Shown here piece after piece: positions 34,773-41,958 of a DNA stretch of 63,367 nt. Numbering within the stretch: the first letter of the stretch is position 1; every line of letters begins with the position of its first letter. Source of the DNA: Halococcus morrhuae DSM 1307 (GTDB taxonomy: Archaea; Halobacteriota; Halobacteria; Halobacteriales; Halococcaceae); the NCBI RefSeq assembly GCF_000336695.1, contig NZ_AOMC01000161.1:36853-100219 (forward strand), read 5' to 3'. The position numbers and the translations under genes were made by a program. The notes under the pieces are model-generated. The model was not told where the DNA came from, made no database searches, and saw only the letters and a program-made list of their open reading frames with translations.

Positions 34773-35404
34773 GCGAATCGACGAGCCCCATCGACGCCGC
34801 CGACCGCCCTGAGGTCCTGTTCGTCGACAACTTCGATTCGTTCACCTACAACCTCGTCGAGTACGTGAGCGAACACGCGAACACCCACGTCGTGCGCAAC
34901 ACGGCTTCACTCAACGAAATCCGCGCTGCCGACCCGGACGGGATCGTCATCAGTCCTGGGCCGGGCCACCCGGAAAACGACCGCGACGTGGGTGTCACGC
35001 TCGACGTGCTCCGAGAGATGAGCCCCGGAATTCCGACGCTCGGCGTCTGTCTCGGGCTGGAAGCCGCGGTCTACGCGTATGGAGGATCGGTCGGGCGCGC
35101 GCCGGAGCCAGTACATGGAAAGGCCGTCTCGATCGATCACGACGGTCGCGGCGTGTTCGCCGATCTCGATCAGGGGTTCCAGGCAGGGCGCTATCACTCG
35201 CTGGTCGCCACCGACGTGCCCGACTGTTTCGCCGTGAGCGCGCGCACCGCCGACGGGCTCGTGATGGGGATCCGCCACGGCAGACATCCGATCGAGTGCG
35301 TACAGTTCCACCCGGAAAGCGTGCTCACGAGTGTCGGCCACGACGTCCTTCGGAACTTCGTTTCTGCGCTCGATGGCGAGCGCGTCCCGAGCGCGAATCA
35401 GTAG
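34769..35404 (+). CDS. trpG: Anthranilate synthase component II (glutamine amidotransferase)
   Basis: Class I glutamine amidotransferase, 211 residues, supplying ammonia to TrpE. The oxyanion strand is VLFVDNFDSFTYNLVEYV, the nucleophile Cys94 is in LGVCLGLEAAVYAYGG, and the His-Glu pair is in VQFHPESVLTS. The usual GHQ following CLG is GLE here, a variation that may be a haloarchaeal TrpG feature rather than a defect. It is the last gene of trpDFEG and overlaps trpE (ATGA). A putative exported protein follows 35 nt later. Confidence 0.94.
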   Translation: MSESTSPIDAADRPEVLFVDNFDSFTYNLVEYVSEHANTHVVRNTASLNEIRAADPDGIVISPGPGHPENDRDVGVTLDVLREMSPGIPTLGVCLGLEAAVYAYGGSVGRAPEPVHGKAVSIDHDGRGVFADLDQGFQAGRYHSLVATDVPDCFAVSARTADGLVMGIRHGRHPIECVQFHPESVLTSVGHDVLRNFVSALDGERVPSANQ

Positions 35405-35439
35405 CGTTAACCCGACCAGCCACGCAGTCGGCACAACCA

Positions 35440-36753
35440 ATGCGTTCGCCCTCTCGCCAGCGCCTCGGTGCGCTCCTGGTGGTTCTGGCCGTCATCGTCG
35501 TCGTCGGGCCACTCGCCGTGAGCGCGGCGACCACACCGACTGCCAGCGCGGCCGACAACGATTCGACGCGCGGTGCGACGCTCGTCGGAATGCAGTCCGA
35601 AGGAGCGGTCACACAGTACGACGCGAACGGCGACGAGGTCTGGACCGAGCGCGGCGAGAACGTCGACTACTTCGACGTGACGAAACTCGACAACGGGACG
35701 GTGCTCGCGGGCTTCATCGTCGAGGGCGAGCAGTCCTGTGGCGAGTACGAAGCGCCCTGCTCGCGGACGGGTTATCGACTCATCGAACCCCAGCCCGAGC
35801 CACACGTCGTCAACGAGTGGTCGTTCCCCGTGGCGACGAAGCTCAACAGCGAGGTCCACGACGCGAACATCCTGTCCTCGGGCGAGGTGATCATGACCGA
35901 CATGGACGCCGAGCGCGTGTTCACCATCGCGCCCAACGGCACGACCACCTGGCAGTGGAACGCCAGCAACTTCTACGACGCGCCGCCGGACCCCACCCAG
36001 ACCGACTGGCTCCACATCAACGACGTCGACCCGATCGGCGGCGATCGATACATGGTCTCGGTCCGGAACGCGAACCAGCTGCTCGTCATCGAGCGCGGTG
36101 AGGGCGTCGTCGACGTGATCAACGAGGACACCGAGCGCGGCAACGACCAGAACTGCAAGGCGAACAACGGGCTGGCCGACTACAGCAACGACAGCGGTGG
36201 CGACGTGCGCTGTGGCGATCCGGAGATCCTGAACCATCAGCACAACCCGCAGTATCTCGGACCGGACGCGATCCTCGTCGCCGACAGCGAGAACGACCGC
36301 GTGGTCGAACTCCACGAGCGCAACGGGAGCTGGGAGGTCGTATGGGGCGTCGATTCGTCCAACGGCGTCCGCTTCGACTGGCCGCGTGACGCCGACCGCC
36401 TGCCCAACGGCAACACGCTCATCACCGACAGCCGCAACAACCGCGTCGTCGAGGTCACGCCCGAAGGCGAGACCGTCTGGAACACCGACACCGGGATCTG
36501 GCCCTACGAGGCCGAACGGCTGCCCTACAACGAGATCCTCAATGACGACCAACTCCCGCGGATGAACGGCACCGGCGACACGCCGACGACGAGTGGGGAG
36601 ACGCTCCCGCTGCTCGGACAGGCCCACGCCGGCCTCTCCTACGTGGTGTCGCTGCCGGTCTGGTTCCAGCCCTGGCATATCGGCGCGCTCGCCCTCGGCG
36701 TGATCTTTGCGCTCGTCGGCGGCGTGCTGGTCTGGAGCGGTCGGCGGCGGTAA
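35440..36753 (+). CDS. Exported arylsulfotransferase (ASST)-like beta-propeller protein with C-terminal membrane anchor
   Basis: A 437-residue protein with an N-terminal signal helix (residues ~9-36, GALLVVLAVIVVVGPLAVSA), an extracellular beta-propeller-like body and a C-terminal helix (~413-432) plus RRR anchor. Repeats such as ILSSGEVIMTDMDAERVFTI, VADSENDRVVELHERNGSWEVVW and RLPNGNTLITDSRNNRVVEV resemble arylsulfate sulfotransferase/NHL-like blades, and HDANIL, LHINDV and HQHNPQ carry conserved histidines. ASST catalytic His can be one of these, but no one residue can be confirmed by eye. It has a 35-nt gap after trpG and may be co-transcribed or simply adjacent. Substrate is unknown. Confidence 0.78.
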   Translation: MRSPSRQRLGALLVVLAVIVVVGPLAVSAATTPTASAADNDSTRGATLVGMQSEGAVTQYDANGDEVWTERGENVDYFDVTKLDNGTVLAGFIVEGEQSCGEYEAPCSRTGYRLIEPQPEPHVVNEWSFPVATKLNSEVHDANILSSGEVIMTDMDAERVFTIAPNGTTTWQWNASNFYDAPPDPTQTDWLHINDVDPIGGDRYMVSVRNANQLLVIERGEGVVDVINEDTERGNDQNCKANNGLADYSNDSGGDVRCGDPEILNHQHNPQYLGPDAILVADSENDRVVELHERNGSWEVVWGVDSSNGVRFDWPRDADRLPNGNTLITDSRNNRVVEVTPEGETVWNTDTGIWPYEAERLPYNEILNDDQLPRMNGTGDTPTTSGETLPLLGQAHAGLSYVVSLPVWFQPWHIGALALGVIFALVGGVLVWSGRRR

Positions 36754-36834
36754 CGCTCGCGCCCCGCTTTCGAACGAACCCCTTCACGCTTCGTCTGCAA
36801 CCCACCTTCCATCGGCCGATTTTTCACGGCACGA

Positions 36835-37017
36835 TTACTTCCACTCCGTTCTGGATACGTTTATAACTCTTTGGGGATTATCTAAGGAAACAACCCACGG
36901 ATAGTGATATTCGAGTCGTCTCAACAGTATATTCAAATGAAATTGCAAAAAATCAAATGAAGACGGATAATTTATTTGGATGGCCATTGAACAAGGGATT
37001 CGTCACCGAATGACCGA
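36835..37017 (+). repeat. Upstream copy (A) of a ~183-bp duplicated cis element
   Basis: Copy A of a direct repeat whose partner is 37522-37704. The last 75 bp (36943-37017) differ at only 4 positions from the partner (37630-37704); the first 108 bp align at equal length but are diverged, and both carry a TTTATA element (around 36860 and 37548). A second TTTATTTGG box lies in the conserved part. It ends 71 bp upstream of a small membrane-protein gene. Together with 36754-36834 this is a 335-bp AT-rich gene-free stretch. Confidence 0.8.
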
Positions 37018-37034
37018 CGGATGATCGGACGCCT

Positions 37035-37049
37035 ACGCCAGCCCTAGCA
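37035..37049 (+). repeat. 15-bp direct repeat, copy 1
   Basis: ACGCCAGCCCTAGCA, identical to 37352-37366. The two copies bracket the 77-residue membrane-protein gene. Confidence 0.7.
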
Positions 37050-37088
37050 TCTGGCTCTGCTCCGCGATTCCACGCACCCAAAATCACC

Positions 37089-37322
37089 ATGATGCGCAAA
37101 CCGACACAAGGAGATGAATCTCCGACTTCACGAAATAAGGTAGAGCAGATGGGAGCAGTTGCGATTGTTGTTAGTGCCGCCTACGTAGCAGCACGCTCCA
37201 TCGTCCGGTATCTGATGACATTAGCATCGCTGGAGCAAATCATTGCGGGACTGCTAACTGTTGGTATTACCCTCATAATACTCGCAGTGCTGTGGCTGCT
37301 CTCGATTGTGACATCAGGTTAG
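37089..37322 (+). CDS. 77-residue two-helix membrane protein beneath the duplicated nrdJ-type leader
   Basis: Starts MMRKPTQGDESPTSRNKVEQ and then has two hydrophobic helices (about residues 21-34 and 50-73), with positively charged or polar loop residues between, indicating a small inner-membrane protein. The composition is less GC-rich than the chromosomal average (CAGTTGCGATTGTTGTTAG), and the gene is flanked by identical 15-bp repeats and followed 8 nt later by a hairpin. No family recognised. It lies 71 bp after repeat copy A, which resembles the element upstream of nrdJ, so it may be expressed under the same control. Confidence 0.55.
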   Translation: MMRKPTQGDESPTSRNKVEQMGAVAIVVSAAYVAARSIVRYLMTLASLEQIIAGLLTVGITLIILAVLWLLSIVTSG

Positions 37323-37329
37323 CGTGATC

Positions 37330-37345
37330 CCGGCATGCTTGCCGG
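37330..37345 (+). terminator. Perfect hairpin after the 77-residue gene
   Basis: CCGGCA-TGCT-TGCCGG, a 6-bp stem and 4-nt loop, 8 nt downstream of the stop codon. A terminator or processing hairpin is possible; no T-run follows it. Confidence 0.4.
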
Positions 37346-37351
37346 AGACCC

Positions 37352-37366
37352 ACGCCAGCCCTAGCA
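37352..37366 (+). repeat. 15-bp direct repeat, copy 2
   Basis: Identical to 37035-37049 (317-bp offset). The following 155 bp to repeat copy B are AT-rich and contain no gene. Confidence 0.7.
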
Positions 37367-37521
37367 AAGACTCAATTCGAGGGCATCAACTTAAAGATTG
37401 ATTTTCGTCTGTTGTTTGTGAGTCTATTGATTATACAAATGTCTAATAGATAGGGCCATTAGAAAATACAGTCGCTTCCTCTGGATCATCAAGCGCAGTC
37501 GTGTGGTTTTTCGTCAGACAA

Positions 37522-37704
37522 ATCACTTTCACTCCAGACAGGGTATGTTTATACTGCTCCAGCGGGTACCTTCGGAAGCAACCGCGATCAGTGAAAGCCG
37601 CATAGTACCAACAGCATAATCAACTAAACTTGCAAAAAATCAAATGAAGACGGATAATTTATTTGGGTGGCCATTGAACAGGGAGTTCGTCACCGAATGA
37701 CCGA
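37522..37704 (+). repeat. Downstream copy (B) of the duplicated cis element, nrdJ promoter/leader
   Basis: Partner of 36835-37017; the 3' 75 bp are 71/75 identical. It carries TTTATA near 37548 and TTTATTT near 37660 as candidate TATA boxes and ends 66 bp before the nrdJ ATG. The 448-bp spacer 37323-37770 contains no credible ORF. Confidence 0.8.
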
Positions 37705-37734
37705 TTTTACACCACACCGAAAGGGGAGTTTTGC

Positions 37735-37767
37735 CCGTCAGCGCCCGCACGCTGCCGGAGGGGACGG
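37735..37767 (+). promoter_or_regulatory. Candidate structured leader with embedded Shine-Dalgarno of nrdJ
   Basis: CCGTC (37735-37739) can pair with GACGG (37763-37767), and AGCG (37740-37743) with CGCT (37750-37753). The strong GGAGGGG (37757-37763) falls mostly in the asymmetric internal loop, seven bases before the ATG at 37771. Strong SD motifs are uncommon in this window, so translational control is plausible. Confidence 0.4.
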
Positions 37768-37770
37768 TCG

Positions 37771-40700
37771 ATGAGCCGCGCGGACCGCTCGGCCGACGAG
37801 GTCGTCCTTCCCGTGAAGCGCACCGACGGCGACACGCTCGACGAGCGCCTGACCGCGAACGCCTACGAGAACATCCTGCCGGCGCGCTATCTCCGGAAGG
37901 ACTCCGATGGGGAGCTCGTCGAGACCCAGGAGGATCTCTTCGTGCGCGTCGCGAAGAACGTCGCGCTGGCCGAGGCGGTCTTCGAGGCCGAGCGCAACGA
38001 CATCGAAGTCAGCGTCACGCCCGACCAGCTGAAGCCCGACCATCCGCGCCGCGACCACCTCGCGAGCGAAGTGTTCGGGAAGGGGACGACGGCCGACGAC
38101 GAGGCCGAGACGGCGCTGTCGGCGTACAACGTCAACAAGTTCGCCTACGAGACCGTGGTGCCCGAGCTGCCGGCGGAGATCCGGGACCACGTCGAGGCGA
38201 CCGCGCAGTCGTTCCAGGAGTCGATGGAGGAGCTGTCGTTCATCCCGAACTCGCCAACGCTGATGAACGCCGGCGACGAACTCCAGCAGCTCTCGGCGTG
38301 TTTCGTCGATTCCCCAGCCGACGACATCGACGACATCCACGAGACGGCCAAGGAGGCCGCACAGGTCTTCCAGTCCGGCGGTGGGATGGGCTACGCGTTC
38401 TGGAAGCTCCGCCCGTACGGCGACGCGGTGGGCTCCACGGGCGGGATCGCCTCGGGGCCGATCACGTTCATGCGCACGTACGACCAGATGTGCGAGACGA
38501 TCGCGCAGGGTGGCGCGCGTCGCGGCGCACAGATGGGCGTCATGCGCGTCTCGCATCCCGACGTGATCCAGTTCATCCACGCGAAGAACAAGGACGTCTC
38601 GCTGGCGCACTCGCTGCGACTCAACGATCCCGACGACTTCACGCACACGCAGTTCGTCGACGCGCTGGAGGAGGCCCGCGAGCTCATCGACGACGAGGGG
38701 AAGGTACCCGAACACCTGCGCAACGCCGTCGAGGGCCATCTCTCGAACTTCAACATCTCTGTGGGCGTCACCGACGACTTCATGGACGCGCTCGAAAACG
38801 GCGAGGAGTTCACCTTCACCAATCCACGTACTGAGGAACCACATATCGCCACCGCCGAGACGAAGGAGCTCTACGACTGCTACGATCTCGGCGAGCACGT
38901 CGAGGTCGGCGAAGAGCTGTCGATCCCGGCCGCCGACCTCTGGGAGCATATCGTCGATGGTGCCTACCAGAACGGCGAGCCCGGTGTCATCTATCTCGAA
39001 CGAGTGAACAAGGAGCACTCCTTCGACGTCGAGGAGCATCCCGACCACGAGATCCTGGCGACGAATCCGTGTGTCACGGGTGATACACTCATCAGCACCG
39101 AGCGGGGACTGGTTCCTGCCGAGGAGCTGTACGAGCAAGGCGTCGCGACGGACGTTGTCGTCGACGGCCGGTTGAGTGACGACCGTATCAAGGAAGCCAG
39201 CAGCGTTTACAAGACAGGCGAGAAAGACGTCTACGAACTCTCCACCGAGGAAGGGTACGAGCTCCGGCTGACTGCCGATCACCGCGTGATGACCGACGAT
39301 GGCTGGGTCGAAGCGGGAGAGCTCGACGCCGGCGATACCGTTCATATCGCGGATCGCAAAGGTGCGTTCGGCCAGCACGGCACGGTCGAGGAAGGGAAGG
39401 TGCTCGGCTGGCTCGTCGGTGATGGCCACCTCAAACACGGCGAGGAGCGGGCCGTCCTGAACTTCTACGACGAGGACTGTGCGATTTCCGAGGAGTTCGC
39501 TGACGACGTGAACGACGTGGTACGTGAACCCGTCGGCAACGCGAACTACGAGGTCGGCGTCAGCCAGATTCAGCGTGCCGACGAGTATCGTGGTGTGGAC
39601 GCACGTGAGGAACGCATTCGTTCGTCACGGCTCTACGAACTCGCCGAACAGGCTGGACTCGTCGAGGAGAAACTGCAGGTTCCGAGCAGCGTCTTCCAAG
39701 GGAGCGAGGAGATGGCTCGGGGGTTCCTCAGAGCGCTGTTCACTGCCGACGGAAGCGTACAGGGGACGCGGGAGAAAGGCTTCTCCGTTCGACTATCGAG
39801 TTCGGAACGCGACTTACTTGGCGACGTCCAGCGACTCCTGTTGAATTTCGGTATCCGGAGTACCATCTACGAGAACCGTCGCGATGCCGGCACACGGGAG
39901 CTACCGGACGGCAACGGTGGGACGAAATCATACGACGTGAGGGCCCAGCACGAACTCGTCGTCTCGGGTGCGAGACTTGTCGCGTTCGAGGAGGAGATCG
40001 GCTTCTTGCTCGACGACAAAACCGACGCCCTTGCGGAGCGACTCGACAGCTACGGGCGTGGACCGTATCTCTCGAAAGCCGAGGCCACGGTCGAATCGGT
40101 CGAACTGGACGGCCACGAACCAGTGTACGACCTCACGGAACCGGACACCAACTCGTTCGTCGGCAACGGTCTCGTGGTTCACAACTGCGGCGAGCAGCCG
40201 TTGGAGGAGTACGAAGCCTGCAATCTCGGCCACATCAACCTCTCGACGCTCGCGGCGACCGATGCACCCGACTGGCGGGTCTGGTCCGACGAGCACGCCG
40301 ACGAGTACGACAGTCGGGAAGCAGCGATGGACGCTTACCTCGACGAGGCTATCGACTTCGAGGCGTTCGATCACCGCATCGAACTCGGTACGCGGTTCCT
40401 CGAAAACGTCGTCACGATGTCCGACTTCCCGGTCGAGAAGATCGAGCAGAAGGTACGAGAGATGCGCAAGATCGGGCTCGGCATCATGGGGCTCGCACAG
40501 CTCTACATCCAGTTGGGCGTGCGCTACGGCTCCGAGGAGGGCAACGAGATCGCCCGCCAGCTGATGGAGCACATCAACCACGGCTCGAAGTCCACCTCCC
40601 ACGAACTCGCCGAGCAGCGTGGAAGTTTCGAGGACTGGACGGACTCGAAGTACGCCGATCCCACCGCCTACCGCGAATGGTTCGAGGCCCAAACGGGTGA

Positions 40701-41958
40701 ATCGGCCGACGACTGGGCCGACGGCTACCCCATTCGCAACCACAACACGACGACCATCGCCCCGACGGGGACGACCTCGATGGTCGGCAACACGACGGGT
40801 GGCTGTGAGCCGATCTACAACGTCGCCTACTACAAGAACGTCTCCGACGACGTGCAGGGCGACGAGATGCTCGTCGAGTTCGACGACTACTTCCTCCGGG
40901 TCTTGGAGGCCAACGACCTCGACGTCGACGCGGTGAAGCGCGAGGCCCAGGACCAGATGAGTAGCAATGAGTTCGACGGCGTCGAGGGGCTCGAAACGGT
41001 GCCCGCGGCCATCGGCGAACTGTTCGTCGTCACCTCGGATCTCTCGGGCATCGAGCACGCGGGCGTCCAGGTGGCCTGTCAGGCCGGCGTCGACAGCGCC
41101 ATCTCGAAGACCTGCAACTTCCCGAACAGCGCCACGAAGGCGGACATGGACGAGGTCTACCGCTACATCTACGACAACGGCGGCAAGGGCGTGACGGTCT
41201 ACCGCGACGGTACGCGCTCGAAGCAGGTTCTGACCACGCGGGCGGACAACGCCGAGTTCGCCGACGACGAGGAGGCCGCGGCGGTCATCGCCGAGCAGAT
41301 CGAGGAGGTCTTCGGCGGACTCGCCGAGTTCCTCGACCACGAGGACGTGCGCGGGACGCTTGCGACCGAGGAGGCGTTCGACGAGCCGGTCTACGCGGCG
41401 AAACAGCCCCGGCCGGACGTGCTCCACGGGATGACCCAGCGCATCGATACGGGCTACGGCAAGCTCTACGTCAACATCAACGAGGACGAACAGGGTCGGC
41501 CGTTCGAACTGTTCGCCAACATCGGCCACTCGGGCGGGTTCACCAACTCCTTCACCGAGGCCTTGGCCAAAGTGATCTCGACCGCGCTGCGCTCGGGCGT
41601 CGCGCCCAAGGAGATCGTCGACGAGCTCGACGGCACCCGCAGTCCGAAGGTCGCCTGGGACAAGGGCGAACAGATCCAGTCGATCCCGGACGCTATCGGT
41701 ACCGCGATGCGTCGGTATCTCGACGACGAGATCGAGAAGACCTACCCTCAGCAGCGCAACCTCGCGGAGATCGCCGACGACGAGGGCGCTGAACCGGAGG
41801 CCGACGGCGGCGTCGCAGCCGAATCGGACACGACCGACGACGTCCAGGAACTCATCGACAACGGCGAGAGCCCCGAATGTCCCTCCTGTGGGGCGTTCAC
41901 GCTGTACTACTCCGAAGGCTGCAAGACCTGCGAATCCTGTGGCTGGTCGGAGTGCTGA
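37771..41958 (+). CDS. nrdJ: Adenosylcobalamin-dependent (class II) ribonucleotide reductase with intein
   Basis: Reduces ribonucleotides to deoxyribonucleotides using a cobalamin-derived radical. The 1395-residue precursor contains a 372-residue intein (residues 434-805); the spliced enzyme is 1023 residues. Landmarks: [49 protein letters not shown], the thiyl-radical site [22 protein letters not shown] (interrupted just before Cys), and [15 protein letters not shown]. The C-terminus has a zinc-ribbon-like CPSCGAF...[12 protein letters not shown] supplying redox-active cysteines. Start ATG 37771 is supported by GGAGGGG seven bases upstream. It is preceded by a duplicated cis element. Needs vitamin B12, as does the mutase in the same window. 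Confidence 0.96.
   Translation: [1395 protein letters not shown]
39070..40185 (+). mobile_element. Intein with LAGLIDADG homing endonuclease in nrdJ
   Basis: In-frame protein intron of 372 codons. It starts at Cys ([20 protein letters not shown], splicing block A), contains block B ([20 protein letters not shown] with the His of TADH), ends with block F/G ([21 protein letters not shown]), and is followed by extein Cys+1. Two dodecapeptide motifs, [10 protein letters not shown] and [10 protein letters not shown], retain both acidic residues, so homing may still be active. It is inserted at ATNP^CGEQ, directly in front of the catalytic Cys, a recognised RNR insertion site. The coding text seems slightly less GC-rich at third positions than the extein. 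Confidence 0.95.

Follow-up and report, generated by a model that had tools for sequence, protein, structure and literature searches.

Huber et al. (2019, PMC6728339) described gene pairs of Haloferax volcanii that are coupled by termination-reinitiation; their stop and start codons overlap as ATGA, and the upstream frame carries a Shine-Dalgarno (SD) sequence towards its 3' end. Of 14 overlapping pairs from Haloferax and E. coli, 13 proved strictly coupled (PMC6728339). Short upstream ORFs that deliver ribosomes have also been described (Shell et al. 2015, as cited in PMC12548453). With regard to transcription, a UV-B motif, TTTCACTTTCA, is found at radA1, top6B, vng17 and vng280 of Halobacterium (PMC2556686), where nrdJ is itself UV-induced (PMC1224876, PMC2556686). 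The haloarchaeal nrdJ control region shares features with all of these. It has the ATGA overlap and internal SD sequence of the Haloferax pairs, but the upstream frame is an ORF of 14-30 codons with an unconserved peptide, kept before one gene throughout the order. As in the Shell et al. uORFs, the leader ORF is proposed solely to bring ribosomes; it is, however, archaeal and conserved at a single gene, and the neutrality of its peptide was tested via the substitution pattern. The nrdJ promoter likewise shares ACTTTCA, upstream of a TATA box, with the UV-B motif, although nrdJ is not among the carriers listed in the available part of that report (PMC2556686) and the word here resembles ACTTTCACTCCGG, with a TATA box at an offset of 24 nt in 105/156 leaders.

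The window, a 63,367-nt stretch of the Halococcus morrhuae DSM 1307 genome, contains this region twice (Table 1). A sequence-only reading had described two direct repeats of equal length, one before a 77-residue two-helix membrane protein and the other before nrdJ, and its measurements were reproduced: both copies span 183 bp, the last 75 bp match at 71 positions, and the gaps from copies A and B to the downstream genes are 71 and 66 nt. Hydropathy of the membrane protein peaks twice (Kyte-Doolittle, 1.84 and 2.70), marking two hydrophobic stretches, and the identity of nrdJ is confirmed by Pfam. Over their full length the copies are identical at 118/183 positions (ungapped). Their first 108 bp, said to be diverged but alignable with TTTATA boxes, agree at 47 positions, against 27.4 +/- 4.5 in shuffles (maximum of 2,000, 44), and are therefore also related. 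Searched against its own genome, copy B retrieved copy A as the sole other strong match (E 1.7e-32; next 0.1), so that a mobile or MITE-like repeat was rejected. The repeat is the nrdJ promoter/control region of haloarchaea, here of a Halococcus.

Table 1. Features of the duplicated control region and adjoining genes (window positions)
Feature	Position	Strand	Remarks
promoter copy A	36835..37017	+	old chromosomal position, behind arylsulfotransferase-like gene
distal promoter P1 of copy A	36837..36865	+	ACTTCCACTCC box and TTTATA (36860-36865); one mismatch to ACTTTCACT
proximal promoter P2 of copy A	36965..36979	+	TTTATT box
CGTCACCGAATG in copy A	37001..37012	+	probable transcript 5' end and probable start of a shortened leader ORF (MTDG, then stop)
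orphan membrane-protein ORF	37089..37322	+	77 codons
promoter copy B	37522..37704	+	adjoins nrdJ
distal promoter P1 of copy B	37525..37553	+	ACTTTCACTCC box and TTTATA (37548-37553); ACTTTCACT core present
proximal promoter P2 of copy B	37652..37666	+	
CGTCACCGAATG in copy B	37688..37699	+	probable 5' end of P2 transcript; leader-ORF start codon
leader ORF	37697..37774	+	25 codons and TGA; overlaps nrdJ start as ATGA (37771-37774)
SD-like GGAGGGG	37757..37763	+	within leader ORF
nrdJ, class II ribonucleotide reductase	37771..41958	+	Pfam; intein at about 39112-40185

It is likely that nrdJ is translated by termination-reinitiation from the leader ORF and that two promoters, one repair-type and one basal, drive its transcription, with the orphan gene placed behind the copy A elements. 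The proximal promoter (P2) would yield a transcript beginning a few nucleotides upstream of the leader-ORF ATG, and ribosomes would load at this mRNA end onto the leader ORF, reach a stop codon that overlaps or lies near the first codon of nrdJ, and restart translation there, often aided by an SD sequence within the leader ORF. What would matter is the translation of the ORF, the sequence of the peptide playing no detectable part. The distal promoter (P1), with a radA-like, ACTTTCACT-like box and TATA 24 nt on, would add nrdJ transcription upon DNA damage or replication stress.

The short ORF overlapping the nrdJ start had been overlooked in the earlier reading. For comparison beyond the order, 196 genomes of the phylum were sampled, and the 33 in which NrdJ was matched at E <= 1e-70 all belong to this same order. 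The haloarchaeal leaders number 157 (77 taken from the 140 order genomes in which NrdJ was matched, and 80 named loci retained from 230); the counts are not independent because several species are present in both sets, and 85 leaders are non-redundant (below 80% identity). An ATG-initiated ORF with its stop within -6..+10 of the nrdJ start, mostly as ATGA or GTGA, occurs in 156/157 leaders (84/85 non-redundant), the exception being G045, so that the overlap or few-nucleotide spacing expected of coupled pairs is nearly universal. Lengths vary from 14 to 30 codons. The ORF lies in the +1 frame in 143 leaders, against 11 and 10 for frames 0 and +2, and 13 of the 14 remaining leaders also have an ORF, in another frame, ending at the nrdJ start (stops at -4..+7). 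An SD-like sequence is found at -26..-3 in 99/157 leaders, and further upstream in 10/157; this second property of coupled pairs is thus not universal. The ATGA overlap is partly automatic because NrdJ begins Met-Ser; the evidence lies in conservation of the ATG and in the frame staying open. Where an ATG lies at -90..-45, the frame ends at the nrdJ start in 127/128 leaders, compared with 17.6 +/- 3.9 (maximum 27) of 157 in dinucleotide shuffles and 19/245 ordinary genes (19/75 of those with an ATG there), the starts of these control genes being the first ATG/GTG of long ORFs and redundancy being kept.

These figures bear on the proposal that the frame is not translated and arises as a by-product when DNA or mRNA is conserved close to the promoter. 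In its favour, the leader-ORF DNA of four Halococcus genomes differs at only 0-1 of 74 nt, and substitutions are spread evenly over codon positions (122/145/132, against 182/152/499 in nrdJ, for pairs restricted to leader ORFs with a stop at the overlapping TGA). Such near-invariance exceeds the needs of peptide-free coupling and counts against the termination-reinitiation model. Nevertheless, the agreement of 127 of 128 frames on the nrdJ start, despite divergence and shifted frames, and its rarity at ordinary genes make the by-product proposal unlikely. Also against the termination-reinitiation model, no TATA-like word was found for 48/127 leader ORFs.

A second proposal, that the ORF encodes an attenuator or arrest peptide sensing B12 or nucleotides, would suit its position and size, and a weak recurring word resembling R-I-A/D-R-Q was noted on visual inspection. 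Against this, pN/pS of the leader ORF is 0.78 (same restricted pairs), no better than in a wrong frame (0.74; the other, 1.17) and well above the 0.28 of nrdJ, and the third-position excess is absent. By these substitution patterns the peptide sequence is unconserved; what is conserved is the open frame. Nor is there excess folding: the leader ORF is less folded than shuffles (mean z +0.82, 0/75 below -2), and lengths range over 14-30 residues. With neither a conserved peptide nor a conserved RNA structure found, an attenuator is very improbable. A structured RNA leader was also rejected, as no common fold was seen by eye among 55 structures; the 170 nt upstream of the leader ORF gave a mean z of -1.0, with 30% of 74 below -2, and an alignment fold was uninformative, its column-shuffled null having zero variance. 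A cobalamin riboswitch was rejected for lack of an Rfam match at gathering score, the window yielding one tRNA only. B12, suggested earlier as a possible common signal, is thus unsupported, and the shared box instead resembles the published UV motif and stands before repair genes.

This ACTTTCACTCCGG-like P1 box is present in 119/156 nrdJ leaders (shuffles, 0.64; backward control word, 8) and, at the threshold used, absent from 37; 105 of the 119 have TATA at an offset of 24 nt. Elements of the repeat recur before nrdJ throughout the order. A TTTCACTTTCA-like word (<=2 mismatches) lies at -58..-60 upstream of radA in 18/20 loci. The exact TTTCACTTTCA 11-mer upstream of TATA is absent from the window copies, which read ACTTCCACTCC and ACTTTCACTCC; the ACTTTCACT core is exact in copy B and has one mismatch in copy A. 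Among ten Halococcus genomes, box and TATA occur together at 19 places (nrdJ 8, radA 2, RPA 3, Mre11-like 1, others 5), the backward control giving one match. The offset is 24 at nrdJ and 25-26 at RPA and radA (26 in the radA hits, counted alike), and the promoter layouts are therefore similar rather than identical. Order-wide, 12/30 box loci examined stand before other genes. The leaders without the box, the control score of 8, the unequal offsets and these other loci weigh against the model. The SWIM, RPA and nth-like labels derive from family searches with one or two members, Mre11-like and nth-like scoring below the NCBIfam cut-offs, and other labels were assigned by eye, as for the TnpB-looking L232 and L235 and the threonine-dehydratase-looking L273, L274 and L277. 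Small hydrophobic ORFs lie 3' of the box at three of the 30 loci (L252, L253, L257).

As regards a regulator, the CdrS motif resembles P1 in being a haloarchaeal global-regulator site upstream of promoters (PMC8406309). CdrS was set aside on a search of that paper's main text for nrdJ and ribonucleotide reductase, neither of which occurs there. For NrdR, no paper was found in the literature search. SidA and YneA are bacterial damage-induced inhibitors of division, and an analogous part has been considered for the small membrane protein, as captured checkpoint effector of a haloarchaeal SOS-like regulon in which ACTTTCACT, with TATA 24-26 nt on, would mark radA, RPA, nrdJ and, in Halococcus, the Mre11-like gene; this reading is speculative and improbable.

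The duplication is of restricted distribution. Two promoter copies exist only in the window genome (G000) and H. thailandensis (G009) among 18 family genomes, or 2/10 of the genus, a 687-bp block comprising the 77-codon ORF and copy B lying between promoter A and nrdJ. The near-identity of the 3' 75 bp had been taken to indicate functional constraint on two old copies. The proximal promoter is indeed also kept in single-copy genomes (G003 matches copy B of G000 at 73/82 and G007, less well, at 65/82). However, copies A and B are more alike within a genome (75/82 in G000, 77/82 in G009) than is copy A between the genomes (70/82; copy B, 79/82), and in G009 the 5' parts are only 55% alike. This pattern is consistent with recombination in the shared 3' part, and near-identity alone is insufficient; pure constraint, given also the two genomes in ten, is decidedly unlikely. 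The nrdJ of G009 differs from that of single-copy G003 at 33 positions and from that of G000 at 60, so that common ancestry of the block requires a further assumption, either its loss in G003 or its transfer.

The 77-codon ORF is convincing in just 2/293 order genomes, these same two; elsewhere (the 293 genomes and a family search) only weak 27-33% matches inside open frames of >360 codons were obtained, and no Pfam family or relative in plasmids or viral contigs was found. These observations, together with a weak P1 box in copy A of G009 (three mismatches to ACTTTCACT; two in the single copy of G003, also weak), accord with the block being a neutral leftover in which the ORF is functionless and the second promoter simply serves nrdJ. 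Conversely, the frame is kept between G000 and G009, with 9/16 differences at third positions and seven, mostly conservative, residue changes. A neutral block is possible, though somewhat disfavoured. The block follows the start of the leader ORF at the old promoter; under the termination-reinitiation model, the orphan gene would thereby have acquired that promoter and nrdJ the new one. The proposed shared control holds in part: both copies contain a full promoter region, and the small gene and nrdJ are therefore plausibly under common control, but as the gene occurs in 2/293 genomes, pairwise co-regulation is not a general feature, in contrast to the nrdJ elements, which recur across the order.

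A literature search by listings, whose scope did not extend to the Haloferax ribosome-profiling papers (10.1093/nar/gkaa304, 10.1093/femsml/uqad001), returned no report of a leader ORF at nrdJ, and earlier notice is possible. If the model is correct, the near-universal leader ORF would offer a clear natural example of a frame maintained solely for translation coupling, at a key gene of DNA-precursor synthesis and among organisms that commonly use leaderless initiation. Likewise, the box joining nrdJ, radA and RPA provides a concrete sequence from which to search for the regulator behind the UV response of haloarchaea, a regulator not named in the available parts of the papers cited above. Both ideas could be tested in Haloferax volcanii with standard tools.

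The two direct repeats that the sequence-only reading had placed before a 77-codon orphan membrane-protein ORF (copy A) and before nrdJ, the class II ribonucleotide reductase gene (copy B), lie at the coordinates tabulated below and are related over their full length, with 118/183 positions identical. Identity reaches 71/75 over the last 75 positions, and in the first 108 positions 47 are identical against 27.4 expected from shuffles. The reported spacing also holds, the small ORF starting 71 nt behind copy A and nrdJ 66 nt behind copy B. With copy B as query, copy A is its only other strong match in the genome.

Features of the nrdJ region of Halococcus morrhuae and a distant relative (window coordinates unless a contig is given; G000, the window's own genome)
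Feature	Coordinates	Description
Arylsulfotransferase-like gene	35296-36753	Pfam
AACCCC then CGCTTC	36777-36792	second conserved element; also upstream of the distal promoter in other genomes
Copy A	36835-37017	before 77-codon ORF
Direct repeat, 24 nt	37026-37049, 37343-37366	88%; flanks 77-codon ORF within inserted block
Copy B	37522-37704	before nrdJ
Leader ORF	37697-37774	25 codons; TGA overlaps nrdJ start as ATGA
Intein with LAGLIDADG domain	39112-40185	in nrdJ (Pfam)
Distant NrdJ relative	G000:C109:32173-32748	29% identity; 851-codon open frame; also in several relatives

Sequence upstream of nrdJ was collected from 77 whole genomes and 80 named loci (n=157), and almost everywhere in this sample a short ATG frame ends on the nrdJ start. 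Such an ORF, with its ATG 36-110 nt upstream, occupies the +1 frame in 143/157 leaders, the other frames giving 11 and 10; 13 of the remaining 14 carry an ORF in another frame with its stop at -4 to +7. Leader ORFs are thus present in 156/157 leaders (84/85 non-redundant), one genome, G045, being the sole exception. An ATG at -90 to -45 is found in 128 leaders, in 127 of which the ORF ends at the nrdJ start, versus 17.6 +/- 3.9 of 157 in shuffles; among ordinary genes of the same loci, 19/245 have such a frame and 75/245 an ATG in that region. In the 29 leaders lacking this ATG, all of them from Halorubrum, Halopenitus, Haloparvum or handle-named genomes of family f5, the ORF is a 14-codon one that starts at -41. 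Shine-Dalgarno-like words occur at -26 to -3 in 99/157 leaders.

Across 33 independent pairs, leader-ORF differences are spread evenly over codon positions (122, 145 and 132), unlike those of nrdJ (182, 152 and 499), so the comparison indicates that frame, start and stop are kept and the peptide is not. The pN/pS ratio is 0.78 for the leader ORF (1.17 and 0.74 in the wrong frames) and 0.28 for nrdJ, and differing sites amount to 16% of the leader ORF versus 27% of the preceding 75 nt. In four Halococcus genomes the 74 leader-ORF nt hardly vary (0-1 differences), which is compatible with a role at the DNA or RNA level in this genus; nrdJ third positions differ at 91-99 of 410 in pairs with G007, another Halococcus genome. 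Folding analysis gave no indication that the leader ORF contains a structured element.

Two putative promoters precede this ORF. For the proximal one, the commonest start of a TATA-like word is 37-38 nt upstream of the ATG (58 of 127 leader ORFs, with no such word found in 48), and three bases are conserved (C-8, C-5 and A-4); together these predict a transcript start a few nt upstream of the ATG. The distal one consists of a ACTTTCACTCCGG-like box with TTA after it, usually some 190-290 nt upstream of nrdJ; the box occurs with <=2 mismatches in 119/156 leaders (shuffles 0.64; reversed word as backward control 8), and its TATA offset is 24 in 105/119. An AACCCC-like element stands ~63 nt before this box in 28/63 leaders versus 1.9 expected; copy A has the AACCCC...CGCTTC element and copy B keeps only TCGCTTC.

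The box recurs at other genes. Box plus TATA occurs at 19 places in 10 Halococcus genomes (backward control 1): nrdJ 8, RPA 3, radA 2, SWIM 2, TnpB-looking 2, Mre11-like 1 (score below the NCBIfam cut-off) and unassigned 1. The distance between the start of the box and TTAT is 24 nt for nrdJ, 25 nt for RPA and 26 nt for radA. The ACTTTCACTCCGG word alone has 10 occurrences (backward control 0): four lie at nrdJ, two at SWIM and one elsewhere, and the other three precede DUF371 and an endonuclease III-like gene (scoring below the cut-off) and lack TTAT at the corresponding distance. In Halococcaceae radA promoters a TTTCACTTTCA-like word lies at -58 to -60 in 18/20 loci (<=2 mismatches). A stricter pattern occurs 149 times (table sum) versus 7 backward in 117 genomes of the order, and 30 fetched loci comprise radA 12, RPA 5, NrdJ 1 and others 12. 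By eye, the box precedes threonine dehydratase-looking genes in three genomes (L273, L274, L277), and box plus TATA precedes genes resembling TnpB transposon proteins at L232 and L235. At three loci from other genomes (L252, L253 and L257) a small hydrophobic ORF, of 44, 44 and 52 codons respectively, lies behind a ACTTTCACT-TATA box, the first two ORFs resembling each other.

By blastn, nrdJ-proximal sequence is matched in 4/10 genus genomes. Two of these four, H. morrhuae and H. thailandensis, have both copies, with no further two-copy genome among 18 family genomes, while G003 and G007 have a single copy between the arylsulfotransferase-like gene and nrdJ. That gene ends just 5' of the nrdJ control region in all four; the other six Halococcus genomes have an apparent trpG end (by eye) in its place. 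In the two-copy genomes the leader-ORF start of copy A, ATGACCGA, is followed by a 687-bp block that has copy B at its end. The 3' parts of the copies are near-identical (75/82 in H. morrhuae, 77/82 in H. thailandensis) and the 5' parts diverged (62% and 55% alike), a pattern that fits either arrival of the segment by recombination in the common 3' part or duplication with later conversion; the 5' part of H. morrhuae copy A is 72% alike to the single copy of G003, to which copy B is less similar there (64-65%). Between the two species the 5' part of copy B is 97% alike, that of copy A only 75%, and the block without its promoter copies matches at 455/505. One insertion event in a shared ancestor does not suffice to explain the block: since H. 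thailandensis nrdJ is nearer G003 (33 differences in 1,230) than H. morrhuae (60), the block was either lost in the G003 line or passed between lines.

Convincing relatives of the 77-codon ORF are confined to H. morrhuae and H. thailandensis among 293 genomes of the order; none was found on plasmids or viral contigs, and Pfam gives no family. Copy A has both promoters and the start region, with a leader ORF truncated to MTDG*; the orphan gene would thus have nrdJ-type transcription in common with nrdJ and would lack translational coupling. Open nrdJ frames of 1,053-1,069 codons in H. thailandensis, G003 and G007 appear to be without the intein.

Each component is already known by itself, namely gene pairs coupled through ATGA, upstream ORFs that deliver ribosomes, and the UV motif; for their near-universal combination at nrdJ no prior report was found in the literature searched, which did not extend to two central Haloferax ribosome-profiling papers. 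The layout of the region and how widely it occurs are direct observations, as are the frame statistics and the distribution of the box; two-promoter transcription and reinitiation are inferred by analogy with other systems. Transcription of nrdJ would use two promoters, one of repair type and one basal, a reading that draws on published Halobacterium UV data (PMC1224876, PMC2556686), and ribosomes that finish the leader ORF would reinitiate on nrdJ, as suggested by coupling tests reported in Haloferax and E. coli (PMC6728339).
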